From a marine gamma proteobacterium HTCC2080 (lineage in GTDB: Bacteria; Pseudomonadota; Gammaproteobacteria; Pseudomonadales; Halieaceae), in the NCBI GenBank assembly GCA_000169115.1, contig AAVV01000005.1:62001-126000 (forward strand): a DNA stretch of 64,000 nt. Reading direction: 5' to 3'. The stretch's first letter is position 1. Each line of letters opens with the position of its first letter. A program made the position numbers and the translations under genes. This document shows positions 200-18,317 of the stretch, in pieces. The notes beneath the pieces were generated by a model that was not told the origin of the DNA, did not search any database, and worked only from the letters and a program-made list of their open reading frames with translations.

Positions 200-204
200 G
201 TGAA

Positions 205-1353
205 TCACCGGCCAAGAATGGAGCGCGCTACAAGCTCTCTCATAATTTCAGAAGTGCCGCCATAAATGGGTTGAATACGGGCGTCTACATAAAAGCGGGA
301 GATGGGGTATTCGGTGGTGTAGCCATAACCGCCAAAGCACTGCAAACATTGGTCAGCAACCCGGCACTGCATTTCACAGCTGGCGAGTTTTAGCATTGCA
401 GCTTCTTCACTGCTGAGATCTTCATTGGCATATTTCTCCGTGCACTTTTCATAAAATGCGCGGTTAATGGCGATATCCGTTTTTACATCAGCAAGCTTAA
501 ATCGAGTGTTTTGGAAGCCACCTATTTTTTGTCCAAAAGCTTCACGTTCTTTCACGTATTCAACGGTAACGTCGAGGGCACCTTCAGAGGCAGCCACAGC
601 CTGAGCAGCAATACCCAAGCGTTCTCTTGGCAGTTCATCCATGAGAATTGCGAATCCTTTATTCGCCTCACCCAGTAGGGCATCGGCAGGTAGGCGCACG
701 TCGGTAAAAAATAGCAGTGCCGTATCGGACGTGTGCTGACCGATTTTCTCAATTTTCTTGGATTTCTCAAAACCCGGCGCGTGGGCGTCAACTAGAAATA
801 AGGACGTACCTTTGGCGCCTTTACCCGGGTCTGTGATGGCGGCAACGATAACTAGGTCAGCGTGGATACCATTAGTGATAAATATTTTAGATCCATTTAG
901 CACCCATTCATCACCATCGCGGACTGCGTTAGTGCGAATGCTTTGCACGTCTGACCCCGCGCCCGGTTCGGTCATGGCAAGAGCACCAACGCATTCGCCG
1001 GTAACCATTCTGGGCAGCCAGTGCGCTTTCTGCTCCGGTGTGCCATGCCGGCTTAAATAGGGAGCGATGATATTAGAGTGAATCCCGTAAGCCGAGGCAA
1101 ATCCACCAAAACACATGTAGGACAGCTCTTCTATCATGGCAAGTGTGACGTGGGGTGTGGTGCCTGCGCCACCGTACTCCTCGGCCACATCGGGGCATAG
1201 TAGTCCCGCTGCGCCTAGGGTATTCCAGAGTTCACGAGGCACCATATGTTCCTCTTCCCACTGAGCGTAATGTGGTGAGATCTCTTTTTCAAAGGCGCGC
1301 CTTGCCATGTCACGGAACAGCTGCATTTCATCAAGATTTACGGCTTGGTTCAT
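205..1353 (-). CDS. Acyl-CoA dehydrogenase, long-chain/isovaleryl-like type
   Basis: A 382-residue flavoprotein of normal acyl-CoA dehydrogenase length. It is predicted to oxidise an acyl-CoA to the 2,3-enoyl-CoA with FAD, passing electrons to ETF. Visible family motifs are AMTEPGAGSD (residues 126-135), the FAD/substrate segment around WVLNGSKIFITNG, the helix near EAFGQKIGGFQNTRFKLADV, and the C-terminal QCFGGYGYTTEYPISRFYVD and IYGGTSEIMRELVA. The usual catalytic Glu of short/medium-chain enzymes (YEGT) is Gly here (YGGT). As in long-chain and isovaleryl enzymes, the base is likely E244 in ELPRERLGIA. Substrate cannot be fixed from sequence. It sits just upstream of the DUF885-like gene on the same strand. 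Confidence 0.93.
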   Translation of the reverse strand: MNQAVNLDEMQLFRDMARRAFEKEISPHYAQWEEEHMVPRELWNTLGAAGLLCPDVAEEYGGAGTTPHVTLAMIEELSYMCFGGFASAYGIHSNIIAPYLSRHGTPEQKAHWLPRMVTGECVGALAMTEPGAGSDVQSIRTNAVRDGDEWVLNGSKIFITNGIHADLVIVAAITDPGKGAKGTSLFLVDAHAPGFEKSKKIEKIGQHTSDTALLFFTDVRLPADALLGEANKGFAILMDELPRERLGIAAQAVAASEGALDVTVEYVKEREAFGQKIGGFQNTRFKLADVKTDIAINRAFYEKCTEKYANEDLSSEEAAMLKLASCEMQCRVADQCLQCFGGYGYTTEYPISRFYVDARIQPIYGGTSEIMRELVARSILGR

Positions 1354-1529
1354 ATCGGTGTAGCCTTTTAATCGCAGGCTCGGAATTATGCCTAAAACTA
1401 GCGGCCGCTGAAAGGAGGAGTCCTTTTTTCTCTGGAAAGGCCATAACTATCGAGTCGTGTTACTTTAAAGCCAACAACACATGAATTTCAGCACGGTTCA
1501 TGCTTTTTGGCCTTTATGGAGATTCTCCC

Positions 1530-1997
1530 ATGCAAAAACTGCGGACTACATTGCTGCGCTCAGCGCGTGGGTTTTCGTTGATCGAACTCATGGTCGCCAT
1601 TGCGATCATAGGCATATTGGCGGTCGTAGCATTGCCTGCCTATCAAAGCTACGTGAAGCGCGCAGAGTTTGCGCAAGTCATTGAAGATTGGGATGCACTC
1701 AAAGTAGCTCTTGAACTTTGCTGGGAGCTTGAGGGCGATCTTCGCAAGTGCGACACCTCTCATGGAGGAATCGCCGCCGCTATTAAGGGCCTTGCCGGGG
1801 TAGGTGTGCGGATTTACACCAGCGGTGGAAGTCCTTATACAACACAGGTTAGGCTCTTCAGCACCACGGTTCTTCTCTCGGATGGTTCATATGCTGCCAT
1901 TCAATATACTGCCGCAGCGGTCAAGGGCGGCACTCTAAGATGGGGCATCACTGAAAACGCCTCAACCTGCCTTTCTGAGGATATCTGCAGCTTGTGA
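1530..1997 (+). CDS. Type IV pilin-like protein (prepilin)
   Basis: A 155-residue protein with a class III signal: a short leader ([14 protein letters not shown]), cleavage G14/F15, and [20 protein letters not shown] with the conserved Glu at mature position 5. The hydrophobic N-terminal helix continues into [15 protein letters not shown]. The start at 1530 places GGAG about ten bases upstream and gives a normal leader, unlike the ATG at 1500. The globular part has an internal pair of Cys ([13 protein letters not shown]) and two Cys at the C-terminus (STCLSEDIC), compatible with a disulphide-bounded loop. No other pilus genes are adjacent, so it could be a major pilin, minor pilin or pseudopilin exported by machinery encoded elsewhere. 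Confidence 0.88.
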
Positions 1998-2146
1998 TAT
2001 TGAATGCGATCAAAAAACCTATAGCAGCGCTCCCAGCCCATGGTTTCAATCCTCAATGGGAAGCTGTTAAAGCGCGCTGTAAAGACATTGAGCTGACTTG
2101 CCAGCAGTCAAAGTGGAAGATCGACGAGGGTCGCTGTGCACGCTAA
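1994..2146 (+). CDS. Possible 50-aa coupled small protein after the pilin
   Basis: A GTG overlaps the pilin stop in a GTGA arrangement and opens a 50-residue frame ending in TAA, overlapping the next gene start by 11 bases. The product is basic, contains three Cys ([14 protein letters not shown] and GRCAR at the end) and has no signal or membrane segment. The stop-start overlap suggests translational coupling, but I recognise no family and the frame may be fortuitous. If real, it would link the pilin and dioxygenase genes into one transcript. Confidence 0.3.
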
Positions 2147-2975
2147 CGGAGCGCCAGTCGACTTCGGAACGCATTGTTCAGCGATTCAGGAAGAGGGCTA
2201 TACGGTATTTACTGATGTGCTTTCCGAAGCTGAAATTACAGCGTATCGGGCGGCACTTCAGCCTTGGCTAGATAAAGATCTCTGTGGGCGTAATGTCTTT
2301 GAAGGTACCCGCAGTCATCGCGTTTACGCCATGCTTGCTAAGAATCCCATCTTTGCCGAACTGGTTACGCATCCCTTGGCCTTAACTCTCGCGGAGCATT
2401 TTCTTGGAGAGAGTTGTTTGTTATCGGCCTGCCTTGCGATAGAGCTCATGCCCGGGGAAAGTGCACAGCCCTGGCACACTGATGATGGTCACGTTTCACT
2501 GAAGCCACCCCATGAAATTTTAGGTATATCGGCGTTCTGGGCTTTGTCAGATACCACGGTTGAAAATGGCGCCACCGAGGTGCTTCCCCGGTCCCATCTT
2601 TGGGCTGAGCAGGATCTTCCCGGTGCCTTAACCGCTGTTGATTTTGACAATACAGATGGCGTTGATGAAGCGGCAGATCATGAATGTCATTCCGCCGCGA
2701 AAACGGTCACATTGACCGCCGGCTCACTGATGGTGGCGCGAGGCGATCTGTGGCATCGTGGTGGGGCAAACCTGTCTGGTGGGTCACGGCTAATCGTTAC
2801 ACCGCAGTATTGTGCCGGCTGGCTGCGTCCCTTGGAGACAATGCTGCTTACTATGACACCTGCACAAGTCGCTGCTTTTCCCGAACGTTTGCAGGCCTTG
2901 CTAGGTTATTCCATTCATGCGCCTTTTATGGGGTACGTGGATGGTATGCATCCGAAGCGAATTTTAGGTGCGTAA
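2136..2975 (+). CDS. Phytanoyl-CoA dioxygenase (PhyH) family protein
   Basis: A 279-residue Fe(II)/2-oxoglutarate-dependent oxygenase candidate. The iron triad is visible: H114 and D116 in QPWHTDDGH and the distal H207 in DLWHRGG. R218 in SGGSRLIVTPQY is suited to binding the 2-oxoglutarate carboxylate. The N-terminal EEGYTVFTDVLSEAEI is typical of the family start. GTG is used, preceded by GAGG. The family hydroxylates diverse small molecules, lipids and acyl-CoAs, so the substrate is unknown. The gene is followed by the truncated aldehyde dehydrogenase, which may once have been part of the same unit. Confidence 0.85.
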   Translation: MHANGAPVDFGTHCSAIQEEGYTVFTDVLSEAEITAYRAALQPWLDKDLCGRNVFEGTRSHRVYAMLAKNPIFAELVTHPLALTLAEHFLGESCLLSACLAIELMPGESAQPWHTDDGHVSLKPPHEILGISAFWALSDTTVENGATEVLPRSHLWAEQDLPGALTAVDFDNTDGVDEAADHECHSAAKTVTLTAGSLMVARGDLWHRGGANLSGGSRLIVTPQYCAGWLRPLETMLLTMTPAQVAAFPERLQALLGYSIHAPFMGYVDGMHPKRILGA

Positions 2976-3053
2976 TGCGCTCGGTTTCGCTATGTTCTCG
3001 CTTCGCGAGTTTACGTTTTAATTATAATTAGGTTTTTTAAAAAAGGTGATCCC

Positions 3054-3530
3054 ATGAGAGAGTACAAGCAGTTCTACATTAACGGTGAGTGGGTTGCGCC
3101 ATCTGCACCGAGTGATTTTGAGGTTTTTGATCCCGCTACCGAAGAGGTTTGCGCGACCATTTCTTTGGGTAATGAAACCGATGTTGATAAGGCCGTTGCA
3201 GCGGCTAAGGCGGCATTTGAGACTTTTAGTCAGACATCTGTTGAAGAGCGTGTGGCTTTGCTCGAGCGCATATGCGAGATCTATCAGCGTCGTTTAGGCG
3301 ATATCGCTGAAGCGATCCGTTTAGAAATGGGCGCGCCGATTAAGCTTGCCTCGACGGCACAGGCTTTTGCCGGGTTGGGCCATATTGCGGAAGCAGCCAA
3401 GGTACTAAAAACCTACGCATTTACCGAAGATCTCGGAGAGCACCGTGTCGTTAAGGAGCCTATAGGCGTGTGCGGCTTGATTACACCGTGGAACTGGCCC
3501 CTGAATCAGGTAGGATGGCTGATTCGTTAG
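3054..3530 (+). pseudogene. Truncated aldehyde dehydrogenase (N-terminal third)
   Basis: Residues 1-152 match the N-terminal NAD-binding region of aldehyde dehydrogenases: FYINGEWV, VFDPATEEV, the helix ERVALLERICEIYQRR, and KEPIGVCGLITPWNWPLNQ. Homology then ends abruptly and the frame terminates after VGWLIR. A full enzyme is about 480 residues and needs the downstream catalytic Cys and Glu, which are absent. A good ribosome site (AAGGTG) remains. The break coincides with the end of a convergent truncated gene, so this is a remnant left by a rearrangement. Confidence 0.85.
3503..3525. repeat. 7-bp inverted repeat at a rearrangement junction
   Basis: GAATCAG and CTGATTC flank a 9-base spacer exactly where homology to two truncated genes ends. 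In the forward gene the left arm encodes the NQ of WPLNQ. On the reverse strand the right arm encodes the NES of FISNESA. Each parent gene thus contributes the same heptamer in its own sense direction, a plausible microhomology for template switching or inversion. Confidence 0.7.
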
Positions 3531-3819
3531 AAATGAAAAATGATAGGCAATAAGTTCCTCGTAAATTTTTGTCGTGCTCTGGCACAGCGCTGACCATGAG
3601 AAAAGCAGCTCGATAGGGGCCTGCGTTGCTGCCGCGCCAATCGCCTATCGTGAGGCTCGCAGGACCAGCCCCGGGTTCTAGGCCAGGTGGCAACACCTCC
3701 CGAACAAAATCTACATCTGTATCGAAAGGAACGTAAAGTACCCGTCCATCGCGAGCGTGAGGTTTTGCCAAAACGGCCTGTAGCTCTGCGATTTCTTCGG
3801 GGTTCTTAACGTAGCCCAT
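3512..3819 (-). pseudogene. Truncated acetoacetate-decarboxylase-like gene
   Basis: About 100 residues resemble the N-terminal half of acetoacetate-decarboxylase-superfamily proteins: GRVLYVPFDTD, FVREVLPPGLEPG, and GTYCLSFFISNESA. The last segment in intact members leads into the GRE-x-x-G-x-PK active-site lysine motif. Homology stops there and the frame continues into the antisense of the truncated aldehyde dehydrogenase (open to 3481). The active-site lysine half is therefore missing. It is divergent from, and more standard in sequence than, the two decarboxylase-like genes that follow on the forward strand. Confidence 0.7.
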
Positions 3820-3937
3820 AGTCGTTCAGCTTCTCTTAAATTTGGTGCATACTGTTTTAGGAAAATTTCCTAGTGGTTCTAGTTTGAACCAATTATCGCT
3901 TTCTTCAAAGCGTCAATTAAAGCGCCGAGGATTTGGA

Positions 3938-5185
3938 ATGGATGCTTCACGGACGGACACCCCTCTTTCCACGTTTAACAATGTAATGACGCGTGTTTTC
4001 CCCCTACCTGCGGATCAATCAACGTTGCAGGGATTTGTCGATAAGTATTTGAATGATCCGTGCCACAGCGGTGGTAATTACTTTCGCGTAGCGCTTCCGC
4101 TGGTGTACTTGCAGTTATTGGATTACGGCTCTATGAGTGGTCGCTTAACGGGCAGCGCGCATACCTCTCAGAATGAGCTCTTATTCATGGTTGTTTTAGA
4201 GTGGTTTGAAGAGTGCGTGAGCGGCACTTTCAAATTTAATGGTAAGGCTTATAAGAGACACGCTGAAGGCAATGCCTTGGTGACCCCATTTATTTTTGTA
4301 GATAACCCTTTGTCGGTCATGATGGGTAGGGAAAATTTTGGCTGGCCCAAGTCACTTATCAATGTTACCCCCGTTGCTCCTGGCTGGGCGCCCGAAGCGG
4401 GCCAGAATGTGCCTATTATGCGCATTGCTGCTATGCGATTGGCGCAGTTTTACGAGGGGAAATCCCAGAGATTTAGCACGATCATGGAGATTGAGAAACG
4501 CGCCGGCTATACAGATGGTACAACGGGGGTTTCGCTTGATGCGGTAAAGGCGCTTACCGACTGGTGGGCTGGCTCTAAACGAAGTTATGAAACACTGATG
4601 CAGCAGTGGCGCGAAATTATAGATCTAAGTGCTACAAATGTAGGCTTGATCACGCAAATGTTAGAGCGATACAGGCAAACAGTCTCGGGAAATACTACGG
4701 GTTCCGGATCCCTGGCTCATTGGTTCGCATCACTCGGAAATTCTATTGGCGTTAAGCACTTTAGTGATCCACAGGCCCCAAACCAGCCGTGTTTTGAGTC
4801 GCTCGCGAATATGCGTACCGAGGTCACAAAAATGTATGGAGGCGGACTACTGGGCAGCTTGGAGTCTCAAGTTTCGAGTTTGGACGGTGGCTTTGCGATT
4901 CGTGTTCATCGATATGAAGCGTATCCAGCGCTGAAAACTTTGGGCGTTAAGGTCAGCAAAACGGAAAAGCCAGCGAGAGCAGGGGATCCACCAGTCGATA
5001 TTCTTACGCCTCTAATGCCTTTTTGGTACCGAATGAATTTCTCGCTTAAAACGAGTGTTCCGCTGTCAACGCGCGTGCATGGCGAGGCTTTTGCTGAGGC
5101 GCTAGATCGGACCCAGTTGGCTGACTACCAACCAGAGTTCAATCCTTCAATGGGGCAGGATGTAAACGGGGTGGATGCCTCATGA
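3938..5185 (+). CDS. Acetoacetate-decarboxylase-like protein, lysine motif present
   Basis: A 415-residue protein with the superfamily signature FIFVDNPLSVMMGRENFGWPK; the lysine (K138) sits where acetoacetate decarboxylases form their Schiff base. It is much longer than a standard decarboxylase (about 250 residues) because roughly 110 residues are inserted after the first half (around EIEKRAGYTDGT to HWFASLGNS). The second half resumes near CFESLANMRTEV. The ATG at 3938 is preferred over an upstream TTG because AGGA lies just ahead. Its stop overlaps the next start (ATGA). Whether it decarboxylates, or performs the aldol or dehydratase-type chemistry known in distant superfamily members, cannot be told. 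First gene of the cluster. Confidence 0.75.
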   Translation: MDASRTDTPLSTFNNVMTRVFPLPADQSTLQGFVDKYLNDPCHSGGNYFRVALPLVYLQLLDYGSMSGRLTGSAHTSQNELLFMVVLEWFEECVSGTFKFNGKAYKRHAEGNALVTPFIFVDNPLSVMMGRENFGWPKSLINVTPVAPGWAPEAGQNVPIMRIAAMRLAQFYEGKSQRFSTIMEIEKRAGYTDGTTGVSLDAVKALTDWWAGSKRSYETLMQQWREIIDLSATNVGLITQMLERYRQTVSGNTTGSGSLAHWFASLGNSIGVKHFSDPQAPNQPCFESLANMRTEVTKMYGGGLLGSLESQVSSLDGGFAIRVHRYEAYPALKTLGVKVSKTEKPARAGDPPVDILTPLMPFWYRMNFSLKTSVPLSTRVHGEAFAEALDRTQLADYQPEFNPSMGQDVNGVDAS

Positions 5186-6342
5186 TCGCGCCACTTTTTA
5201 GTGCTTACCCAGAACGTAGCAACGTGGCTGATGAAACGTTGCGTAACCCCTACCAATATTTTGGCAAAGTAAGGGCGCTGGGCTTGTCTGCTGATGCTGC
5301 GATTTTAAAAGCATTCCTAGATAGTTATCTCAATAGTCGGTTATTGGGCTCGGGATTTAAGTTCGATTTATCAGACCCAACGAATCCAACTGTAATAATG
5401 GTGGTCAGTGACTTTTATCGGATTACTGGATATCCAGATCGCGGTAATTTCCGAAACCGTAGTCTTCAATTTCATGTGCCGGTTACGCGTTATGAGTGCA
5501 ACTCGGATCGAAATGGCGAGCAGGGGACGCTGCAGGTATTCTCTTATGCATCCAATATGTGGAATGCCCTGACGTCCACAGAACTTCGTGGCCCGCTGAC
5601 ACGCCACGCACTGATGCGCTGTCGAACTTGGATCGAAGATTTGCATGCTGAGGCGTCGCCCAGCACCTGTTTCTCCATGGCACCTCAAGTTATTGGCGAT
5701 GATGGAGGCGTTGTCAGTACTTCAATTGTGTCGGTACAAAAACGTGCATCAGGTTTTAAAGCTGTGGAGGAATCACCTAGTAGCTGGGATTTAATAAAGC
5801 TGGATAATGTTTTTGCTGTTAAGCAGTTCCAGCACCAAAAATATCCAGGAAAAGTTTGTTACGAATCCCTGGTGCAAATTGGTTACGACAACACCGGAAT
5901 GGCGTCTCGAATCAATTGGCGCAGCGAAGGTGATTCCGAGGGAAGACTCTCGAAGATGTGTGTCCGGATAAGACAAGATGCGGCACACCCGATCGTTGAG
6001 GCGTTGGGCCTCAAGACTTGTGACCTTCACAGTTATGGGCGACCCGAGAAGCGTCTGCGTGCCATAGCCCAGTCAGGTGCTGCGGCGGACTTGTCAGATT
6101 CCGATGAGGTGAAAGATCATTTGTTAATGCCAACTTTCTATCAGGTTATGGAGGCCGGCTCGCCGGCTAAAGTCGATGCTCACGAGGCCACCCAGCAGCT
6201 CAGGACAGACCTAGCGCTTACATCAGAAGCTCCCGACTCTGACTTGGAAGGCGGTTGCATCAAGGAAGCGGGTAGCGAGACACTTTGCTACCGATATCGA
6301 AGCGACCGTCCCAGTTACGGATGGATAAAGCCATCAAGCTAA
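5182..6342 (+). CDS. Second acetoacetate-decarboxylase-like protein, active-site motif lost
   Basis: A 386-residue protein that parallels its upstream neighbour: FLDSYLNSRLLGSGFKFDLS matches FVDKYLND with the strand after it, YESLVQIGYDNTGM matches FESLANMRTEVTKM, and IVEALGLKTCDLHSYGRPEK matches LKTLGVKVSKTEKP. No GRE-x-x-G-x-PK segment is present, so a Schiff-base lysine is not evident. The ATGA overlap with the first gene implies coupled synthesis, and a heteromeric complex of one active and one degenerate subunit is a reasonable inference. The C-terminal 60 residues are acidic and low in conservation signals. Assignment rests on internal similarity to the neighbour. Confidence 0.55.
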   Translation: MIAPLFSAYPERSNVADETLRNPYQYFGKVRALGLSADAAILKAFLDSYLNSRLLGSGFKFDLSDPTNPTVIMVVSDFYRITGYPDRGNFRNRSLQFHVPVTRYECNSDRNGEQGTLQVFSYASNMWNALTSTELRGPLTRHALMRCRTWIEDLHAEASPSTCFSMAPQVIGDDGGVVSTSIVSVQKRASGFKAVEESPSSWDLIKLDNVFAVKQFQHQKYPGKVCYESLVQIGYDNTGMASRINWRSEGDSEGRLSKMCVRIRQDAAHPIVEALGLKTCDLHSYGRPEKRLRAIAQSGAAADLSDSDEVKDHLLMPTFYQVMEAGSPAKVDAHEATQQLRTDLALTSEAPDSDLEGGCIKEAGSETLCYRYRSDRPSYGWIKPSS

Positions 6343-6402
6343 CATGGCTATCGGTACGCCGGTGATCACCCTGATGAAGCCCAGCAATGAGCACAGTTTT
6401 CT

Positions 6403-7665
6403 TTGACGGCTGACCGCGCCGCCTTCGCCGTATTGGGTGCTACGGGTTTTACAGGTCGAGCTATTGTGGGTTACCTATTGAAACGCATAAGCGCGCCTCT
6501 CAAGTGGATTATCGCCGGTCGCGACGTGCAGGCGCTTACTGAAATGGCGGCAGAATTTGCACAAGGTTACGCGCCTGAAATTGTAGAAATTGAGGATCTT
6601 GGGCTGGCTGATATAGGTCGCCTGACGTCCCAGACCGAGTGGCTTATCAATGCGGCTGGTCCTTATGCCCACCATGGAGATCGAGTTATCGAGAGTTGTT
6701 TAGGCAGCGGCACTCACTACATTGATATATCGGGTGAGGTTGATGTTATAGGCGACTGGATTCACCTGTTTCATGACCGAGCGGTGGCTGCAAATATTCA
6801 AATTATTCCAGCGGCAGGATTTGAAGCTTTACCCTTCGATTTGATGACTAGAGCTGCAGTCGAGAGGATGGCAGCAGATCACCCTGTGACGCAGGTTCAC
6901 GTTGACGTGCTGTTGTCCTATCGCGGGCTCAGCTGGGTAAATTTCTCCCAATTTGCTTCCTCAGGAACTGTAGCGACTGCGCTGGAGACACTTGTTCGAA
7001 ATCCATCCAAGCAAAGGTTGATCGATCCGTCGAGTTTGATTGCAAATGACTTGGCGCAGTTTAGTCGGGACCGGAATCGGCTGGATCTGAGCGCAAAATA
7101 TGATCACGAGTATCAAGTTTGGCGGGCTCCTCTGGTTCCTGGCCCCTTTATTAACCCTGCAGTTATCCACCGCAGTAATGCGCTGCTGAATGGTCTTGGG
7201 GAAGGTTATGGTCAAGGATTTAGCTATGAAGAAAGTATGAATGTCTCCTCAATAGCACCTTGGCCCTTGGGACAATCGGTATTGGCAAACACGTTGGCGT
7301 CTAGCGCGCGTGAATTCCTTGCCGCTCTGGGTGAAGACAGCGTAAGGCGGCAATCGACTCTGGCATTGTGGAGGAGTTTAGCGGAGCAGCCGTCACGAGT
7401 TACGAGTAAGTCACTTGATGCTGTTGGCTATCAGCTTGATGTTGTAGCCAGTCATCATGGTACTCCTAAGGTCAGGGCTCGAATGTACGGAACGGGTCAT
7501 CCGGGTTACCGGTCCACTGGCAATATCATAGGGGAAATAGCACTCGGCTTTGCCAAATCTAGGGGCAAGGTTCGACGTGGGGGGGTCTTGACGCCTGCAG
7601 TTGGCCTAGAAAAAGACATCCTTGCACGCCTTAATAAAGCGGGGATCTCGTGCTGCTGGTTATAG
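6403..7665 (+). CDS. Saccharopine-dehydrogenase-like NAD(P) oxidoreductase
   Basis: A 420-residue protein of typical length for the Sccpdh / trans-acting enoyl-reductase-like family. The Rossmann motif VLGATGFTG sits at residues 10-18, followed by LKWIIAGRDVQAL and WLINAAGPYAHHGDRVIESC, then GTHYIDISGEVD and IIPAAGFEALPFDLM, all characteristic. Members reduce or oxidise C=N or C=C bonds with NAD(P)H, including double bonds of lipid intermediates in mycobacteria. The start is a TTG 60 bases after the preceding gene; no in-frame ATG exists before a stop at 6388, so the start is uncertain. Cytoplasmic or peripheral; no signal peptide. Confidence 0.78.
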   Translation: MTADRAAFAVLGATGFTGRAIVGYLLKRISAPLKWIIAGRDVQALTEMAAEFAQGYAPEIVEIEDLGLADIGRLTSQTEWLINAAGPYAHHGDRVIESCLGSGTHYIDISGEVDVIGDWIHLFHDRAVAANIQIIPAAGFEALPFDLMTRAAVERMAADHPVTQVHVDVLLSYRGLSWVNFSQFASSGTVATALETLVRNPSKQRLIDPSSLIANDLAQFSRDRNRLDLSAKYDHEYQVWRAPLVPGPFINPAVIHRSNALLNGLGEGYGQGFSYEESMNVSSIAPWPLGQSVLANTLASSAREFLAALGEDSVRRQSTLALWRSLAEQPSRVTSKSLDAVGYQLDVVASHHGTPKVRARMYGTGHPGYRSTGNIIGEIALGFAKSRGKVRRGGVLTPAVGLEKDILARLNKAGISCCWL

Positions 7666-7709
7666 CTCCTCAAACTGCGCAACATATTGGTGCAAGATAA
7701 AAAACTTTT

Positions 7710-7737
7710 TTGGCAATGTCCCCAGATCGAATATTAA
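7710..7737 (+). promoter_or_regulatory. Possible internal sigma-70-type promoter
   Basis: TTGGCA and TATTAA are separated by 16 bases in the widest gap (127 bases) within the forward cluster. It could give separate expression of the downstream genes. The match is moderate and untested. Confidence 0.3.
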
Positions 7738-7792
7738 GAGGTAAAGTGTGACTTGGAGCACATAATGCTTGAGTGAATGGCTAGGGACGGAC

Positions 7793-8806
7793 ATGTCACA
7801 AGGTAAAACGCTTCTCTTTCTAGGAGCACAAGGGTACTCAGGCAGGCTTATTTACGAGGGCCTCTCGAGCACGGCAAATGTTATTGCACCAAAGCTCTCC
7901 CACGATTTTTCGATCGCGGAGCAACTGGCAAAATATTCGCCAATGCTCAAACCGGGAGACTTTGTATTGAACTGTTTGGGACCTTTCCAAAACTCCTACC
8001 TTCCAGTCATCGAGTTTTGCTTGTCTCAAGGTACTCATTACTTTGACATTAATGCCGAATGGCAGGTTTTTGAGGCCATTCAGCGACTAGGTTCTAGGGC
8101 TGAGCGCGCCGAAATTATGCTTTTACCGGGCATCGGGTTCGATGTGGTTGCTTCAGACTGCTTGGTGGGTCATGTGTGCCAACGGTTTACTGGCGCATCA
8201 CGAATACAGATAGGGATCTCGGGGCTCGAGCTTTTATCTCGTGGCTCAGCTAAAACGTTGTCCCAGCTCATGGGTGAGCCCCTTCGGGTTCGTCGGCGAA
8301 GTCGGATTGTTTCAGAAACCAGAATACTTGAAACCCACTTCGACTTTGGTGTCGGTGAACGTCGCGCTCTGGGGGTAAGTTGGGGTGATATCAGCACCGC
8401 TTGGTATAGCAGTGCTGTGCCCAACATTGAGGTGTTTTTTGAGGCCACTGCGGCTTTATCTGCGGCCGTTTTCGTTAACCGCACATTCGGTTGGTTGGCT
8501 GCTGAAGACGGCGTTTCTCGTGTCGCACAAGGTCTCATGCAGCGTTTTCCTGCAGGTCCTAATGCGTCTGCCCGGTCGCAGAAAAATGCGACTGTAGTGG
8601 TAAGGGCGCTTGATAGCGACGGACGGCAGGCAGAGTCAAGGCTTCATACTCGAGAAGCCTATACCTTCACTGCTGACGCGGCAAAAGCCACTCTTGAGCA
8701 CTTTGGCCACAACCCAGCACTGTCAGGGTTTCAAACGCCATTTAGTGCTTTGGGGGCTGACTTCGTACTGGAGCTGCCTGAGTGTGAACGAACGGACGTG
8801 CAATAA
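7793..8806 (+). CDS. Second saccharopine-dehydrogenase-like oxidoreductase, short form
   Basis: A 337-residue relative of the upstream oxidoreductase. It starts TLLFLGAQGYSGRLI (Rossmann glycines at 11, 14 and 17), followed by DFVLNCLGPFQNSYLPVIEF, GTHYFDINAEW and LLPGIGFDVVASDCLVGH, which line up with the corresponding blocks of its neighbour. It is about 80 residues shorter, mostly in the C-terminal half. The ATG at 7793 has AGGGA in place and is preferred over an upstream TTG. Its TAA is followed directly by an ATG of the flavoprotein frame, indicating an operon. A distinct step on a related substrate, or a hetero-oligomer with the first enzyme, are both possible. Confidence 0.72.
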   Translation: MSQGKTLLFLGAQGYSGRLIYEGLSSTANVIAPKLSHDFSIAEQLAKYSPMLKPGDFVLNCLGPFQNSYLPVIEFCLSQGTHYFDINAEWQVFEAIQRLGSRAERAEIMLLPGIGFDVVASDCLVGHVCQRFTGASRIQIGISGLELLSRGSAKTLSQLMGEPLRVRRRSRIVSETRILETHFDFGVGERRALGVSWGDISTAWYSSAVPNIEVFFEATAALSAAVFVNRTFGWLAAEDGVSRVAQGLMQRFPAGPNASARSQKNATVVVRALDSDGRQAESRLHTREAYTFTADAAKATLEHFGHNPALSGFQTPFSALGADFVLELPECERTDVQ

Positions 8807-8827
8807 ATGATCAGGGGGATTGATTCA

Positions 8828-10960
8828 ATGACGAGTGAACCTACTAAGGTGGCAATTATTGGGGGTGGGTGCTCAGCAATGGCCACAGCGTTTGATCTCA
8901 CTCGCCCTGAACTTGAAGGTCAATATCAAGTCACAATTTTTCAGCAAGGTTTTCGATTGGGCGGTAAGGGTGCTTCAGGGCGAGGTCCGGGAGATCGAAT
9001 TGAAGAGCATGGGCTGCATATTTTTATGGGCTTTTATGAAAATGCTTTCAGGCTGATTCGCGAGTGCTACCGAGAGCTAGACCGCCCATCGACCAGTCGT
9101 TTTTCGGATTGGGACGATGTCTTCAAGCCCGATCGCTTGACCGGTGTAAAAGATGATCATCATGACGGAACGGCGTCGCACTGGCTTACATGGTTTCCGC
9201 CAGGTGCGGGAACTCCGGGTGACCCAGATGCACCACCAAGAATGTTCAGTGCTAGCGAATACATGGCACGCGGGTTTCAGCTACTTGAAGCAACGTTGCT
9301 ATCTGCACGTCGAGATGAGGTTCTCGATGCAAAGGAGGAAAACCCAGAAGGGTTGAGCCCAAGCTCAACTCCCATAGAGCAAGTGAGTCGTATTTTTCGC
9401 CTGGGGCAGTTGGGTAGCATTGCGGTCGCTGTGGAGGCTGTGCATGCCGCTCGATTAATTGCTGAATCTCCAACGCTAATTTCTTTTCCAGTATTGGCTA
9501 AGGTGGTGGATATGCTCAGTGAATTCGTCAATCGGCGAGTGCACGCATTGGTTAGTCGTGACACTGAAATGAAGCGACTGTTCGAGCTCATTGACCTCAC
9601 GCTGACTGCGATGCGAGGTTCGCTTCAGGATGGCTTAATTTCTCATCCAGACGGGTTCGATGCGATTAGTGATTTGGATTGGCGTGAGTGGCTAAAAAAG
9701 CACGGTGCAACAGAACTTACGTTGAATTCATCGTTTCTGGATACCCTTTACAACATCGCTTTTTCTTATGAACAGGGCGATTTGCGTCGTCCAAACGCAG
9801 GGGCGGGTGAGGCGTTGCGATGTGCCGTTAGGGCTTTCTTAACCTATCGAGGATCTTTTTTTTACAAAATGCAAACGGGTATGGGCGATGCTGTATTCGC
9901 ACCATTTTACGAGGTTTTGCGCCGCCGAGGCGTTCGCTTTGAGTTTTTCCACCGATTGCGAAATCTACAGCTGTCTACAGCGTTGTCCTCTCAAACTCCC
10001 AGTATCGAAGAAATGCACTTTGATGTGCAGGCTAGGTGTAAAGACGGACATGACTATCTGCCGTTAGTCGATGTTGACGGCATACCCTGCTGGCCAAGCG
10101 AGCCCCTGTGGGATCAGTTACTTGATGGCCGTGAGAGCAAGGATAAGGGGGTGGACTTTGAATCACATTGGGATGCCACCACTGTGGAGAATCTGCGGCT
10201 GAAGGTTGGTGAGGATTTTGACGCGGTAGTCCTAGCAGTTGGCTTAGGTGAAGTTCCCTTTGTAGCAGGTGAACTACTGGAACGATTCCCCCACTGGAAG
10301 CGAATGACCGAGAAGGTTAAGACCGTTGCTACCAAGGCTTTTCAGGTTTGGGTAAGTGAAGATATTGAGGCCTTAGGTTGGCGAGATGACTCAGTGAACC
10401 TTACAGGTATCCCGGGCCCTTATGAGACCTGGGCTGATATGACCCATTTGATAGCTCACGAAAGCTTTCCTAAAGAGCCTAAATCCCTCGCTTATTTTTG
10501 TAGCTCTCTGATCACACCCGACGAGTTACCCGCGCAGGACGATTTTGAATACAAAGCCTCCTACGAAGCGGCCATAGTGGTCGACTCGCAGCGTTATTTG
10601 AATGAAAACATTGGCACGGTATGGCCAAACGCTGTGGACGAGAATGGTTTTAGATGGGCGCTTCTTGTTGATCCTGACGGTGAGGAATATCAAGACCCCG
10701 AGTCAAGCCTTCGAAGTCAATATATTCGCGTTAATTTAAACCCGACCGACCGCTACGTCTTATTTACTGCTGGCAGCAGCAAGCATCGAATTTCGCCACT
10801 TGACTATGATGTAAGCAATATGACTGTAGCGGGTGACTGGACCGATGCTGGGCTGAATGTCGGCTGCGTTGAAGCCGCGATGATGTCGGGCCGTGTCGCA
10901 GCGCATGCAATTTCTACTTACCCCGCCCTGGAGGATATTCCAGGCTTTGACCATCCATAG
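8828..10960 (+). CDS. FAD-dependent oxidoreductase, carotene-desaturase-like
   Basis: A 710-residue flavoprotein. The N-terminal dinucleotide fold VAIIGGGCSAMATAFDL is followed by VTIFQQGFRLGGKGASGRG and HGLHIFMGFYENAFRL, the pattern of phytoene/zeta-carotene desaturases and related amine-oxidase-superfamily enzymes. The C-terminal MTVAGDWTDAGLNVGCVEAAMMSGRVAA is the matching second FAD-binding block. It is longer than bacterial phytoene desaturases (about 500), with extra sequence in the middle (residues about 110-330). The ATG at 8828 follows AGGGGGA; an in-frame ATG at 8807 is the alternative. Co-localisation with a polyprenyl synthase supports an isoprenoid or other lipid substrate, but that is inference. 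Confidence 0.75.
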   Translation: MTSEPTKVAIIGGGCSAMATAFDLTRPELEGQYQVTIFQQGFRLGGKGASGRGPGDRIEEHGLHIFMGFYENAFRLIRECYRELDRPSTSRFSDWDDVFKPDRLTGVKDDHHDGTASHWLTWFPPGAGTPGDPDAPPRMFSASEYMARGFQLLEATLLSARRDEVLDAKEENPEGLSPSSTPIEQVSRIFRLGQLGSIAVAVEAVHAARLIAESPTLISFPVLAKVVDMLSEFVNRRVHALVSRDTEMKRLFELIDLTLTAMRGSLQDGLISHPDGFDAISDLDWREWLKKHGATELTLNSSFLDTLYNIAFSYEQGDLRRPNAGAGEALRCAVRAFLTYRGSFFYKMQTGMGDAVFAPFYEVLRRRGVRFEFFHRLRNLQLSTALSSQTPSIEEMHFDVQARCKDGHDYLPLVDVDGIPCWPSEPLWDQLLDGRESKDKGVDFESHWDATTVENLRLKVGEDFDAVVLAVGLGEVPFVAGELLERFPHWKRMTEKVKTVATKAFQVWVSEDIEALGWRDDSVNLTGIPGPYETWADMTHLIAHESFPKEPKSLAYFCSSLITPDELPAQDDFEYKASYEAAIVVDSQRYLNENIGTVWPNAVDENGFRWALLVDPDGEEYQDPESSLRSQYIRVNLNPTDRYVLFTAGSSKHRISPLDYDVSNMTVAGDWTDAGLNVGCVEAAMMSGRVAAHAISTYPALEDIPGFDHP

Positions 10961-10968
10961 GAGACGCT

Positions 10969-11673
10969 ATGACAGAGCAGGCATGGAAGCGACCCGCCCT
11001 TGAAAGAACTAAGCCGCATCGGCAATTGGCGGCAAATATTTCACTAACGGGATCGCAGCAATCCCCAAAGGCGTCACACGCTATGACGGGAGCAGCAAAA
11101 GGCGCTCAGTTGGGCTATGAAGTCTCTGAGGAACAAATGGAAGAAGGTAAAGCTCAGGCTCGGTTTCATGACATTCCCGGTGCCGCCTCTGATTTGTTTG
11201 GATCTGGATTTTCTGATTTAAAAGGCACGGTATCGTCAGAGAACTTTCTGGCGCTGTCAGAACGGGTTATGAAGGATACCTTGCTGTGGGTTGAGTTTGT
11301 CGCACGGTCCGTGCAGTGGCAAATGCCTGGTAGTAAATCAGAATCCAATGAGACGTCGAAATCTGCAGAGCAAACAGCGCCTGCAGGCGGTGGTGGATTT
11401 ACCACTGAGGTTAGCAGTCTTCAGCCTGTCGAGGTGACTTTTCAACCACACCCCGGTGCTGAGTCGCGCTCCTTAGGTGTGCATGATCTTCGTGGATTAG
11501 ATGCAGAGTCTCCTGCAATTACGGGCGTCGAGGTAACTCGCGACGGTGACCAATGGCGGTTAAGGATTGGTATCGGTCAAAGCCAACCGCCAGGGCTATA
11601 TACGGGAATTGTTTTCGATCGTGAAGATGGTGCTATTCGCGGGTCACTTTCTGTCGCAGTGAAAGGTGGTTGA
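10969..11673 (+). CDS. Unrecognised protein with C-terminal beta domain in the isoprenoid-like cluster
   Basis: A 234-residue protein I cannot assign. Residues 1-70 are polar and probably flexible; about 75-125 could form helices (LALSERVMKDTLLWVEFVARSV). A low-complexity linker rich in Ser, Thr and Ala with a Gly run (GGGG) follows. The last 90 residues look like a compact beta sandwich (TGVEVTRDGDQWRLRIGIGQ, PPGLYTGIVFD, GSLSVAVKGG). There are no cysteines, no signal peptide and no clear transmembrane segment. It begins 8 bases after the flavoprotein stop, and its own stop lies at the ribosome-binding region of the polyprenyl synthase. It could be a scaffold or carrier for the cluster enzymes; no function is claimed. 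Confidence 0.6.
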   Translation: MTEQAWKRPALERTKPHRQLAANISLTGSQQSPKASHAMTGAAKGAQLGYEVSEEQMEEGKAQARFHDIPGAASDLFGSGFSDLKGTVSSENFLALSERVMKDTLLWVEFVARSVQWQMPGSKSESNETSKSAEQTAPAGGGGFTTEVSSLQPVEVTFQPHPGAESRSLGVHDLRGLDAESPAITGVEVTRDGDQWRLRIGIGQSQPPGLYTGIVFDREDGAIRGSLSVAVKGG

Positions 11674-11675
11674 TT

Positions 11676-12710
11676 GTGCCAATTACCAGCGACTCAACGG
11701 TTGCAGAGGTTCTTGATGACTATGGAAAAATCACCCGAGCTGAATTAAAAAACTGGCTCCCTAAAGGCGACCCCGAAGACTACCTTTACGGTCCCATGTC
11801 AGACTATCCAATGCGGGGGGGGCGGATGTTTCGCCCTTCGCTCTGTATCGCTACAGCGAAGGTATTTGGAGCCTCACTTGAGCAGGTGATACCTGCTGCA
11901 GTCTCGATAGAACTCCTACACAATGCGTTGCTTATCCATGATGATATTGAAGACGAGAGCGATGAGCGGCGAGGCAAACCTACCTTACACAAAAAAATTG
12001 GGACACCACTTGCACTCAACGCTGGGGACTCGCTGGCGTTTCTAAGTTTGAGACCTATTATCAGGGGCAGTGCTTCAATGGGTTCTGACTCGATAGTTCG
12101 TATTCTTGAAGAGTTTGACCAAATGGCCCAGCAGACCGCGGAAGGTCAGGCGTTGGACCTTGGTTGGCGCCGAGATAATCACATCGAGCTTTGCGAAGCC
12201 GATTATTTAAAAATGGTCCTTAAGAAAACCTGTTGGCTGACCACGCTTTTTCCAATTCGTCTCGGGGCTTTGATTGGATCCGGGGGCAGGGCGAATCTCG
12301 ATAGCTTGTTTAATTTTGCTTTTTTTCTGGGCGCTGCCTTTCAAATTCAGGATGATGTTTTAAATCTTATCGGTAACCATGAACGTTACGGTAAAGAGTT
12401 GGGTGGCGACCTTCTGGAAGGCAAGCGCACTTTAATGCTGGTGAATTTGTTGGAGCTGTCCTCTTCCTCGGAGCGAGTGCGAATCAAGGCGATTCTAGAT
12501 ACCCCTCGGGATGCTCGTAGTGACGCATCAGTTAGCTGGCTGCGATCTGCCATGATAGAGCGAGGTTGTATTGAGTACGCTAAAGAGTTGGCTCATGGGT
12601 TGGCGGGCGCTGCGAGCCATGAGTTTGATAAGACATTTAAAGAGCTTCCAGAGAGTAGCGACAAAGCCTTTTTATCTAAATTACCTTCGTGGGTGATAGA
12701 GCGTTCGTAG
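11676..12710 (+). CDS. Polyprenyl synthetase (trans-isoprenyl diphosphate synthase)
   Basis: A 344-residue trans-prenyltransferase expected to extend an allylic diphosphate with isopentenyl diphosphate. The first Asp-rich motif is DDIED (about residues 89-93) in HNALLIHDDIEDESDERRG. The second is DDVLN (about 226-230) in FQIQDDVLNLIGN, followed by GKELGGDLLEGKRTLM. The N-terminal GGRMFRP corresponds to the usual GGK-x-x-RP. A small residue (Ala) lies five positions before the first motif, so a C20 or longer product is possible, but length cannot be fixed. GTG at 11676 is chosen because AGGTGG lies six bases upstream; the TTG at 11670 would leave no spacing. Last gene of the forward cluster. 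Confidence 0.9.
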   Translation: MPITSDSTVAEVLDDYGKITRAELKNWLPKGDPEDYLYGPMSDYPMRGGRMFRPSLCIATAKVFGASLEQVIPAAVSIELLHNALLIHDDIEDESDERRGKPTLHKKIGTPLALNAGDSLAFLSLRPIIRGSASMGSDSIVRILEEFDQMAQQTAEGQALDLGWRRDNHIELCEADYLKMVLKKTCWLTTLFPIRLGALIGSGGRANLDSLFNFAFFLGAAFQIQDDVLNLIGNHERYGKELGGDLLEGKRTLMLVNLLELSSSSERVRIKAILDTPRDARSDASVSWLRSAMIERGCIEYAKELAHGLAGAASHEFDKTFKELPESSDKAFLSKLPSWVIERS

Positions 12711-12777
12711 CTTTGGCTCTCAGAATACGCTGCGAAAAATCGCCCGCTAAGTTCTGCTATCGATTGTTGGTTTTTTG

Positions 12778-15618
12778 CTAGGCGTGCTTTGCGGAGGCGT
12801 TGTTAGCGTGCTTCTCGAGCGCAGCTGTTGCGCGCTCTTCAAAAATCCGTGCAGACATAGCCTTAGCTGTGTCCTGAGCACGTTTTATCCAGCTTACGCC
12901 TTCAGGGCGGCCAAGCTCGATCATGCATTCACCCTTTAGCCGGTAGATTTCAGAATCGACGAAGTGTTCGAAGCGATCCTGACTGCCTTCCAATATGGCA
13001 TCGAGGGCTTTAATAGCGTCTTCAGATCTTTGGTTTAGACGCAGTATCTCCGCTAGCTGACACTGGCGCCAGGTGAGGCACAATACCCCGCCTAAGGCCT
13101 CATAGGTTTCCCGCCCCGCTCTAGCTTCAACGAGTCCAGCTTCAGGACTTTCTAATTGGGCCACTGCCATGCCTCGGGTGCAGTGCGCGACGGCAAGCCA
13201 ACTCTGGTAGCCGTTTTCTGTGGCCAAAGTAATAATTTGATCAGAAATGATTTTTAGTTGCGGGTAATTGCCAATGACCTCGTAAATGCAGGCGAGGTAG
13301 CTTAGGGCTTGAACTTGGCAATAGGTTCCCATCTGAGTCGCTTCACTGAGGGTTTTTTTAGCGAGCCCTAAACCATCCTCCGCTCGCCCCATTAAGGCCA
13401 AACACCACGCATGATACAGGGGGCTGAGCATAGTGTATGCCAGGCTTGTCAGTGGTTTTTTCTTGACCCTTAGTTGTTGTAGTTTTTGTTGCCAATATTC
13501 TGTCGCGGTCTCCAATGATTTACACGCAAGAGCGAAATCTCCCTCAAAAAAACGTGTTGTCGCTGCCGCGTTGCTGGCCAAGACGTGGGTTGTATCGTAG
13601 TTAAGCTGCTCGGCCAGAGTTAACTGCCGCTCTACCAGAGGAAGGGCGGCTGGGCTGCAGTGCATGGCGTGGTATGACCAGACCGCATTGAGTGCGTAGA
13701 ACAGAGAGGGCGAGTCTGGATAATCATTGCACAGGTTCATTGCTCGTTCATACTCAGGCACCGCCGCGCTCGCGCCAGAGCCCTCTAGCGTTACAATGGA
13801 GAGCCCTAAACTGAGCCGGTAGCGAATCTCTTTTTCGATGAGCTCACGGGGGGGAAGTTCACTGTCTGTGAGAAGAATCAGTGCCTGTCGCCACCTAGTA
13901 ATGGCATCAGCGAAGGCAGATTGTCCTCTTGCTATATTTGCGGCCTGTTCCCAGTAATCTAGAGCGCGATCAATCAACCCGGAAAGCTGAAAGTGATGGG
14001 CGATCGTTTCGCAATGGCTCGCAACCCCCAGTGATCCCGTCTGATGGTCGGCATAATAATCTCCCAGAGCGCGGTGCCAGTTCATGCGGTCATCTAGCTT
14101 TATGTCTTCATAGAGCGTGTCACGTAACAATATATGTGTGAAGCGAATGCGGCCGCTGGGCCCGATATCAAGGATTCCCGCACTGGTAGCCTCTGCGATG
14201 AGATTTCTGCCTACCTCTTCAGAGACGCCGCTGATGCTGTATATGATGTCTGGGGATAATCTACGCCCCATCACTGAGGCGAGATTGAGAAAGTCCCGGC
14301 AGTCCTTTGTTAAATTACGCATCCTTTCCAGCAATGTGTTTTTTAAATTGCTTGGAATGACAAGACTTTTGGAGCTGCGCCCCGAGCCACTTTGGGCTTC
14401 GTGATTAATAGAGCGTGCAAATTCGGTTATGTACAGAGGATTTCCATCCGCCTTTGATATGACTGCTTGGGCAAGATTTTCAGGGCCTGCCACATTGTCA
14501 GCAAAAAATTGTGCGACTTCCTCCTTAGGTAGCGGTTCTAGGTCATATTGGGCAAAGTGCGATGAACGCGTCAGTTCTACTAGGCCCCTACGGAGTTCGT
14601 GGTCGCTTGCTAGGTCATTGGCCCTATAGTTTCCAAGGATCATTACTGACCCTCGATTCAGTTCCCTTGCAATGATTAAAAAGACCTTAAGTGTTTGTGC
14701 GTCCGAGCAATGTAGATCATCAAACAAGATCAATATGGGCTTACGTTCTGCCAACTTGCGAAAGAGCAGCAAAAGCGCCTGGCCAATCTCAAATGTGAGG
14801 TGGTCAGCTGAATACTCAGGTAGCGATTCAATATCGGAAAATAGCTCCCGCAACTCAGGCAGCAGACTTGCCAATACTGCCGCGCCGCGCCCAAGCTCCT
14901 GTCGCTGCAGCGGAGGATTGAGCTCGTCTATTAAGGTTCTGAGCATGCGAACAATAGGCCAATAAGGCGGTGCGTACATGCTTTCTTCAGACCAAGCGGC
15001 ATGTACTGCAATCCCTTTTTTTCTGGCGTGCTGGGCGAGCTCTTCAGCGGTGCGAGATTTGCCCATGCCGGGCTCGCCCGAGAGCAAAACGACTTGCCCT
15101 GAGCCCTGAGCTGATTGGGAGAGGGCTGCGGTGAGACTGTTCAGGAGATTATTTCTGCCAACGAAAGGCGGAGTGGACCAGTGCTTTTGGTTTTCCGAGG
15201 CCGTAATTTTTTCTGTGAGTGCGACCTGCTTTTTCTTTAGTGCTGGTGCAATTTGCCCAATAGCAGCTATTAATTCGGCAAAGTCCGCGTTGTTACCGAA
15301 GCGACAGGGTATTCCTTGTAGTGCTCGAAAAATAAGTGGTGGGCGTGTGTCATCGATCAATACCGGCACCAGAATGCCTCGGGTATGGCCCTCGTTGGCC
15401 TCAGCCCTAACCCAGTCAGATTGTACTGAATGCCTAGACCAAAGAACGACCACTGTTTGAGCGGCATCGAGTGCATCTTCTATGTCTCTGGCGTAGGAGC
15501 TGCCAGCATCAATACGCTGGTCCCACCAGACCTCCAAGCCAGTGCGTTCGAAATATTCGACCATAGGCACGACGAACGCCCTGTCCTTGGAAGAGTAGCT
15601 AATAAAAATGTCTGGCAT
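12778..15618 (-). CDS. TIR domain / AAA-type ATPase / TPR protein
   Basis: A 946-residue multidomain protein. Residues 1-125 are a TIR domain (DIFISYSSKDRAFV, GLEVWWDQRIDAG, VVVLWSRHSV). It keeps the SDWVRAE segment, where the Glu (E73) matches the W-x-x-x-E residue of NAD-consuming TIRs. Residues about 150-420 form a predicted ATPase with PFVGR at its start, Walker A GEPGMGKS (181-188) and Walker B ILILFDD (D300/D301). Helical repeats of TPR/MalT type fill about 530-930. This layout matches cyclase-ATPase-TPR signalling proteins with TIR in place of the cyclase. It could be a signalling NADase or a phage-defence STAND protein; neither is shown. It converges on the polyprenyl synthase gene and is divergent from the next gene. 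Confidence 0.85.
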   Translation of the reverse strand: MPDIFISYSSKDRAFVVPMVEYFERTGLEVWWDQRIDAGSSYARDIEDALDAAQTVVVLWSRHSVQSDWVRAEANEGHTRGILVPVLIDDTRPPLIFRALQGIPCRFGNNADFAELIAAIGQIAPALKKKQVALTEKITASENQKHWSTPPFVGRNNLLNSLTAALSQSAQGSGQVVLLSGEPGMGKSRTAEELAQHARKKGIAVHAAWSEESMYAPPYWPIVRMLRTLIDELNPPLQRQELGRGAAVLASLLPELRELFSDIESLPEYSADHLTFEIGQALLLLFRKLAERKPILILFDDLHCSDAQTLKVFLIIARELNRGSVMILGNYRANDLASDHELRRGLVELTRSSHFAQYDLEPLPKEEVAQFFADNVAGPENLAQAVISKADGNPLYITEFARSINHEAQSGSGRSSKSLVIPSNLKNTLLERMRNLTKDCRDFLNLASVMGRRLSPDIIYSISGVSEEVGRNLIAEATSAGILDIGPSGRIRFTHILLRDTLYEDIKLDDRMNWHRALGDYYADHQTGSLGVASHCETIAHHFQLSGLIDRALDYWEQAANIARGQSAFADAITRWRQALILLTDSELPPRELIEKEIRYRLSLGLSIVTLEGSGASAAVPEYERAMNLCNDYPDSPSLFYALNAVWSYHAMHCSPAALPLVERQLTLAEQLNYDTTHVLASNAAATTRFFEGDFALACKSLETATEYWQQKLQQLRVKKKPLTSLAYTMLSPLYHAWCLALMGRAEDGLGLAKKTLSEATQMGTYCQVQALSYLACIYEVIGNYPQLKIISDQIITLATENGYQSWLAVAHCTRGMAVAQLESPEAGLVEARAGRETYEALGGVLCLTWRQCQLAEILRLNQRSEDAIKALDAILEGSQDRFEHFVDSEIYRLKGECMIELGRPEGVSWIKRAQDTAKAMSARIFEERATAALEKHANNASAKHA

Positions 15619-15710
15619 GATGTACCGGTCGTCGGAGGCCCCTGCATTATAGCGCCTTAATCAGTAAATCGCATAAGGCGACGCATTTTGATTATTTATA
15701 TGCACATTTT

Positions 15711-15746
15711 TTCTCGAGAACAGCCTGATTCAGCGTTAAGCGCTTA
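15711..15746. promoter_or_regulatory. Two perfect 10-bp palindromes in a divergent promoter region
   Basis: TTCTCGAGAA (15711-15720) and TAAGCGCTTA (15737-15746) are each perfectly self-complementary, centred 26 bases apart, in the 219-base gap between two divergent genes. An AT-rich ATATATATT stretch lies just downstream. They are candidate operator sites; no regulator is identified. Confidence 0.35.
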
Positions 15747-15837
15747 GCCTTCATATGTAAATTCGACTAAATATATATTGCTGTGGAGCGGACTGTGGCT
15801 GCATGCTTCAACGCGTATTTATTCTCTTGGGGGAAAA

Positions 15838-17538: not shown

Positions 17539-17562
17539 AATTTCAGGCCTGCACCTTGAGCG

Positions 17563-17958: not shown

Positions 17959-18317
17959 CGTAGTGTGTCCTTATAGTTATCGTGTGCTTAGGATTAAACC
18001 GCGTTTATTTGCCAATAGATATGATGGTTAAAACATTTTTTTGTTGCTAAAAAAAGTTAAGGGGATGGGTATTGGCGCGACTGATCATCGCTTCGGAAAA
18101 ATGAAAAATACACGCGCCTATAAAACTCCGCGCTTAAGATGATGAGCAGTTTCTGGGTGCGCCGCCCGTTCGAAAGAGTCCGTGGGGGATAGGTCATTTA
18201 TGAGCGTTTATCAGGGCGTCTAACACGCCTAAAATGTGGATTCCAGCGGATGCAAACCACCCCCTTTAGGGGGTTGGCTAACATGCAACGAGAGAGTAGC
18301 GTTAGCGGGAAGTTTTG
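17959..18317. other. Divergent intergenic region with a small hairpin
   Basis: No gene is visible. It must carry promoters for the DoxX gene and the aminotransferase. A near-perfect inverted repeat (CCACCCCCT at 18257-18265 with AGGGGGTTGG at 18268-18277) lies about 40 bases before the aminotransferase start. It has no T tract, so it is more likely a leader structure than a terminator. No known riboswitch is recognised. Confidence 0.4.

Follow-up and report, generated by a model that had tools for sequence, protein, structure and literature searches.

The window analyzed here, a stretch of 64,000 nucleotides from the marine gamma proteobacterium HTCC2080 (contig AAVV01000005.1, positions 62,001 to 126,000; genome of 3.58 Mb in 25 contigs, 99% complete), bears seven open reading frames (ORFs), g1 to g7, which occupy positions 3938–12710 of its plus strand. 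From these, two proteins resembling acetoacetate decarboxylase (ADC), g1 (ADC1, 3938–5185) and g2 (ADC2, 5182–6342), two saccharopine-dehydrogenase-like oxidoreductases, g3 (SDH1, 420 aa, 6403–7665) and g4 (SDH2, 345 aa, 7769–8806, with a further ATG at 7793), an FAD-dependent oxidoreductase with a phytoene-desaturase-type fold (g5, 8807–10960), a protein combining a helical N-terminal half with a C-terminal beta sandwich (g6, 10969–11673) and a trans-polyprenyl diphosphate synthase (g7, 11670–12710) can be deduced. These families had already been assigned in an initial annotation and were confirmed by Pfam and NCBIfam scans, a structure model of g5 and a profile alignment of ADC1 with ADC2. 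The same annotation had described a tightly packed run, and overlaps or short gaps are indeed found at the ATGA overlap of g1 and g2, the TAAATG junction of g4 and g5, the 8 bases between g5 and g6 and the 4-base overlap of g6 with g7, the latter starting with TTG. However, the gaps between g2 and g3 (60 bases) and between g3 and g4 (103 bases) depart from this description. The start codon of g1 is either a TTG at 3842 or the ATG at 3938. Overlooked initially was the adjoining minus-strand gene at 12778–15618, encoding a signal-transduction ATPase with TIR, AAA_16 and weak TPR matches (Pfam), a probable regulator of the cluster; hence, while the seven genes are real, the unit seems to be larger.

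For g5, NAD_binding_8 and Amino_oxidase both score above the Pfam cut-offs, and the structure model, which shows an FAD-binding fold with desaturase topology, is best matched by the plant phytoene desaturase 5mog at 13–16% identity, in line with the earlier reading as a desaturase-like flavoprotein. In contrast to the 467 residues of 5mog, g5 comprises 717, with an extra helical region of about 125 residues (about residues 149–274), and the cluster does not hold a phytoene source. Scores against the NCBIfam models phytoene_desat (22 bits, cut-off 569), zeta-carotene desaturase (35 bits, cut-off 622) and HpnE (50 bits, cut-off 283) are all below threshold. The synthase g7 matches PF00348 (polyprenyl_synt) with 201 bits, above the cut-off, and possesses both aspartate-rich motifs, DDIED and DDVLN, with alanine at position −5 of the first; the score against NF041169, the family 2 encapsulin cargo polyprenyl synthase, is 170.5 bits and thus below the cut-off of 450. 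Four PF00348 genes are found in the genome, g7 included. Two others are taken, by length and motif only, as housekeeping IspA and IspB types, and a crtE-like one lies 1.6 kb from the sole squalene/phytoene synthase family gene of the genome (PF00494, C21:195169), about 115–120 kb from the cluster. Therefore, g7 seems to have been added to the prenyl synthases usually present. In line with the initial annotation, a phytoene synthase or cyclase was not recognized in the cluster, and PF00494 has no match among its seven genes.

The ADC match of g1 is weak, at 19.4 bits against Pfam ADC (cut-off 29.8), its homologue in locus L017 reaching 36.6 bits and g2 matching no Pfam family. The ADC1 and ADC2 profiles align with 100% probability, which establishes the decarboxylase-like genes as a true pair. 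ADC1 retains the active-site lysine motif GRENFGWPK as well as VKHFSD (LKQFRD in many relatives). In ADC2, as judged from an alignment of 24 rows and thus not all loci (L033 was omitted, as its ADC ORF is split), the active-site lysine is absent, with RGPLT at that position, and VKQFQH is retained. In acetoacetate decarboxylase, the active-site lysine is followed by a second lysine, and the pair has a role in the enzyme. This second lysine is absent from ADC1 (GWPKS in g1), so that "decarboxylase" is only a fold name here, which, together with the lysine loss in ADC2, corrects the initial annotation. Compared to the ADC superfamily (ADC, MppR; structure 4zbo), ADC1 carries the lysine of the G.PK motif and aligns to 4zbo over a short stretch (E 0.07), but the cluster proteins are longer (about 350–400 versus 265 aa), lack the second lysine and join ADC1 with a lysine-less partner domain. 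Elsewhere, ADC1 and ADC2 often form one fused protein, while they are separate in the window, L011, L043, L045 and similar loci. Some double ADC proteins, of about 1150–1415 aa, bear an extra C-terminal domain of about 330–530 aa (L016, L017, L020, L027, L028, L035, L036, L039, L040, L046, and L086); these domains are mutually related and unlike the remaining cluster proteins.

The two oxidoreductases g3 and g4 match Sacchrp_dh_NADP with 40.7 and 35.5 bits, respectively, both above the cut-off of 25.1, and each other in BLAST with E 1e-11 across 89 residues, corroborating that they are a true pair as well. Of the two, g3 is accessory, being the best match in only a few other loci (L035, L061, L069, L070, L073, and L084). 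By family name, both can be likened to the trans-acting Rv2953, a putative mycobacterial enoyl reductase according to PMC3089613, but a polyketide or acyl substrate is not indicated for the cluster reductases.

For assessing recurrence, a collection of species genomes was scanned with a pattern from the flavoprotein alignment, giving at least 541 relatives, the best 80 of which were kept as loci, and cluster members were called at these with profile hidden Markov models built in this analysis. The flavoprotein is accompanied by g6 at 42 of the 80 loci, and the polyprenyl synthase is present at 41 of these 42. At 37 loci, g5, g6 and g7 follow each other contiguously on one strand, the remaining five being L028, L037, L038, L041 and L093. 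The 42 loci, many of them from metagenome bins, span the five phyla Pseudomonadota (alpha, beta, and gamma), Myxococcota, Acidobacteriota, Gemmatimonadota and Cyanobacteria, and a Mycobacterium locus with a weak g6 (L093) would make a sixth. Where at least 7.5 kb are available on both sides (23 of the 42), ADC1 is found in 18 and SDH2 in 15 loci. The check proposed with the initial annotation, recurrence in the same order in distant genomes, thus turned out positive for the set, but the order is not fixed and varies between genomes. When 398 genomes were drawn evenly from the phylum, the flavoprotein (E 1e-10) was detected in five, including this one, and one of the four others (G304) has the set with g6 and synthase. 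The tree distances of g5, g6 and g7 correlate with r of 0.81–0.83 over 37 loci (none of 2000 permutations as high), which shows shared history, not function, and may also stem from the shared descent of the hosts. In the flavoprotein tree (midpoint-rooted, supports not inspected), all loci with a clear g6 form one clade, with the window as an early branch. In a neighboring actinobacterial clade, the synthase is present at most loci and a diverged g6 at several, while the rest of the tree is devoid of synthase and g6.

The protein g6 matches no Pfam family and bears a conserved R..P.R motif in the helical N-terminal half; it is a good marker for collecting the cluster. It was matched in 36 of 40 genomes searched, invariably at such a cluster as judged by eye from the positions; the single extra match, in G471, belongs to a second complete cluster consisting of AAA regulator, flavoprotein, g6, synthase, double ADC and SDH2. 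The two whole clusters of G471, L100 (G471:C6:2750000-2769900) and L038, are about 520 kb apart. The four genomes without a match at E 1e-5 are two bearing only the fused ADC-flavoprotein and two mycobacteria.

The cluster is part of a block which replaced resident genes. While g5 is unmatched in 36 same-genus genomes (many of them incomplete drafts), the DNA flanking the cluster on both sides is common to the genus. Window positions 1–3511 and 15952–20551 align to the corresponding locus L113 of G007, where they are about 3.2 kb apart, with the remainder of an intact aldehyde dehydrogenase and a 500-aa gene in this interval, and the last left and first right matching bases bound a block of about 12.4 kb (3512–15951). 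At the same place, G007, G009 and G002 (L113, L114, and L115) bear an intact aldehyde dehydrogenase (ORFs of 476–494 aa) and an equally oriented ORF of 500–549 aa which is glycerol kinase-like by eye from its first residues and probably encodes this enzyme; matches to the cluster genes are absent from this site in all three genomes (E 1e-4). Similarity on the right-hand side resumes at 15952 for G007, at 16006 for G009, with about 3 kb between the flanks, and only at 18333 for G002, which shows other differences. Because the relatives carry intact dehydrogenase and kinase-like ORFs where the window has the block, replacement is evident, and regulator and enzymes are inside it together. In the simplest reading, both arrived in a single event. 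Inheritance within the genus was rejected as an explanation, given the absence of the flavoprotein from the 36 genomes and of cluster genes from the three sites. In addition to the seven genes and the ATPase gene, the block holds half of a further ADC gene on the minus strand (3481–3819, N-terminal half, PF06314 with 46 bits), truncated by the left boundary of the block. The replacement scar at 3054–3819 is still visible, with this truncated gene abutting what is left of the resident aldehyde dehydrogenase, its N-terminal third (3054–3530, plus strand), which stops after about 153 shared codons at 3511; the truncated ADC ORF extends into the dehydrogenase sequence left of 3512.

As signaling ATPases are usual neighbors of the cluster and the minus-strand gene is inside the stretch missing from the genus relative, the TIR-AAA_16-TPR protein probably belongs to the cluster. 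An AAA domain protein is present in 19 of the 23 well-flanked loci and, in a comparison of 22 loci, at 18 versus 0.73 expected from the AAA_16 gene numbers of the same genomes, the expectation being a simple density estimate based on Pfam AAA_16 and the observed count on an in-house AAA profile. Of the four loci without it (L040, L042, L050, and G304), L042 and L050 carry a BTAD-group regulator instead and G304 a TIR-TPR protein. In a set of 34 regulators, hand-picked from neighbors by AAA or TPR similarity and including that of the window and one from L055, a locus ending before g6, AAA_16 was found in 28, a count not independent of this selection, besides class III cyclase (20), BTAD (5), TIR (4) and protein kinase (4) domains. 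The signaling domains are interchangeable, with combinations such as kinase, GAF and histidine kinase (L026), BTAD (L042) or TIR and cyclase (L046). Association of SARP and AAA_16 regulators with biosynthetic clusters is reported for Streptomyces (PMC12224297), which fits a cluster-situated switch here. The window protein resembles such SARP, LAL and AAA_16 regulators in showing AAA_16 and TPR beside biosynthetic-looking genes, but differs by its TIR N-terminus and in that no DNA-binding family was matched (Pfam), and the other cluster regulators frequently contain cyclase, TIR or kinase domains. By eye, the window TIR bears a W-V-x-x-E stretch, which we take to be as expected of NADase TIRs; therefore, it may have an NAD-cleaving role.

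Taken together, the locus is probably a horizontally moving biosynthetic cluster for a polyprenyl-derived metabolite, either a small molecule or a lipid. Isoprenoid-type biosynthetic clusters are a known kind, and the present one is not rated categorically new, because its chemistry is deduced. In the proposed route, g7 would make an all-trans prenyl diphosphate with at least 20 carbons, and g5 might dehydrogenate or isomerize the prenyl chain or an alcohol or aldehyde derived from it. ADC1, aided by the non-catalytic ADC2, could form a Schiff base with a carbonyl intermediate, leading to an aldol, cyclization or decarboxylation step, and g4, here also g3, might reduce a C=C or C=N bond using NADPH. 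A possible function of g6 would be holding together the enzymes or a greasy intermediate, while the TIR-AAA_16-TPR protein may sense a signal and switch the pathway. More tentatively, the loci might represent a new isoprenoid pathway class with members in five or more phyla. In it, a flavoenzyme of the phytoene desaturase type would act without phytoene on what the cluster's own prenyl synthase makes, alongside a lysine-bearing ADC, its lysine-less twin and the new helper g6; interchangeable TIR-, cyclase-, kinase- or SARP-type ATPases would be the switches, and a flavoprotein-ADC module the foundation.

Several observations weigh against these proposals. Fold and motif leave the reactions unfixed, a prenyltransferase, terpene cyclase or transporter was not recognized among the seven genes by Pfam, and two-gene relatives with flavoprotein and ADC but no synthase show that prenyl chains are not a requirement of the core chemistry. 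SDH2 and ADC1 are missing in 8 and 5, respectively, of the 23 well-flanked loci. In L037, g6 and flavoprotein stand on a cut contig without synthase, the weak g6 of L093 does not adjoin the flavoprotein, and the mycobacterial relatives have synthase and diverged g6 but no ADC1 match. The varying N-terminal domain of the regulators does not fix their mode of action, and the variable gene order, the possible host effect on the tree correlation and the restrictions on both ATPase counts belong here as well. One competing explanation is an accessory carotenoid or squalene pathway, in which g5 would desaturate phytoene or squalene from a distant synthase of the host and the other genes would tailor the product. 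Carotenoid clusters, of the crtE-crtB-crtI or crtP type, likewise combine a trans-prenyl synthase (GGPP type, which g7 resembles in PF00348 match and motifs) with a flavoprotein of phytoene-desaturase-type fold. This fold is in line with the explanation, as is a squalene/phytoene synthase family gene in 25 of the 31 genomes bearing the cluster or the mycobacterial relative, including the present one. However, six of the 31 are without such a synthase at E 1e-6, namely, G452, G454, G469, G471 and two mycobacteria with the diverged form. Most are drafts, so this absence is weak, but G484 is a complete genome record, and G471, lacking the gene in its draft, has two whole clusters. Moreover, the crtE-like gene of HTCC2080 is placed with the sole synthase of the family and not with the cluster, which brings its own prenyl synthase, and neither the ADC pair and the Sacchrp_dh reductases nor g6 and the AAA_16 regulator belong to carotenoid biosynthesis. 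With a prenyl synthase but no recognized phytoene synthase in the cluster, and none in the six genomes, the carotenoid explanation is weakened and appears unlikely. A broken carotenoid cluster was rejected on the location of the crtE-like and phytoene/squalene synthase family genes together elsewhere and on the same six genomes.

Equally improbable is a modification of lipids or fatty acids for membrane adaptation or signaling, with g5 and ADC acting on acyl chains and the synthase being a side supply. It is retained because the two-gene module, often fused, is without prenyl synthase in the stretches seen; this form also shows a weak match, below cut-off, to MCRA, a fatty acid hydratase, and on two plasmids is close to a FadL-like (named so here) or patatin gene. 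The enoyl reductase listing of Rv2953 points in the same direction. Among the 42 g6 loci, however, the prenyl synthase is found as regularly as the flavoprotein, being absent from only one. Still less probable is a defense or conflict island, with the ATPase as immune-type sensor and the enzymes making or removing its signal. The block is acquired, and PADLOC returns Thoeris-type and SAVED-TIR models for the TIR domain of the window protein and Pycsar models for the L046 cyclase domain, but these two domains were the only matches among six proteins scanned, with g1, g5 and g6 as the cluster proteins tried and unmatched, and TIR is present in only 4 of the 34 regulators. On the scan of these six proteins, this candidate was set aside as improbable; to our knowledge, no immune system has such an enzyme set. 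A chance run of unrelated genes is refuted by the recurrence of the set in distant genomes, and nothing was found in its favor, leaving it a negligible probability.

For the preferred reading as a mobile polyprenyl-derived biosynthesis, a described pathway with this gene set was not found in open full text, in agreement with the initial annotation, and the enzyme families joined here are not recorded together in that literature. The cluster pairs them with signaling ATPases of the TIR, cyclase or kinase type. Isoprenoid clusters are usually detected via a terpene cyclase, phytoene/squalene synthase or prenyltransferase. Because none of these markers is recognized in the cluster, marker-based searches would be expected to miss it, despite its conservation among distant bacteria and its movement between them. 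Two questions become testable with it, namely, how a desaturase-type enzyme acts without phytoene and which signals such ATPases sense.

Apart from the clusters with a clear g6, further arrangements were encountered. Mycobacterial relatives bear synthase, AAA ATPase and flavoprotein (L060, L061, L062, L069, L070, L075, L077, L084, and L093), several with diverged g6 and some with SDH1. Their neighbors include eccB of type VII secretion in L061 and truA in L070, and a protein of 474–618 aa without Pfam match occurs in the same stretch in L061 and L093. The simpler form, from Duganella, Janthinobacterium, Shewanella and others, is an ADC-flavoprotein fusion of about 1030–1100 aa whose stretch holds neither synthase nor g6 (L065, L071, L072, L074, L078, L079, L082, L083, L085, L087, L088, L090, L091, L092, and L094), the ADC part of which retains the motif GRE[LI].G[YF]PK. 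The flavoprotein is also encoded on large plasmids (L007, L008, L009, and L010), in most cases with ADC adjoining or fused. Among the plasmids, that of Azospirillum carries two flavoproteins, a FadL-like protein and a large AAA ATPase, and on those of Rufibacter and Qingshengfaniella cyclase proteins adjoin the flavoprotein.

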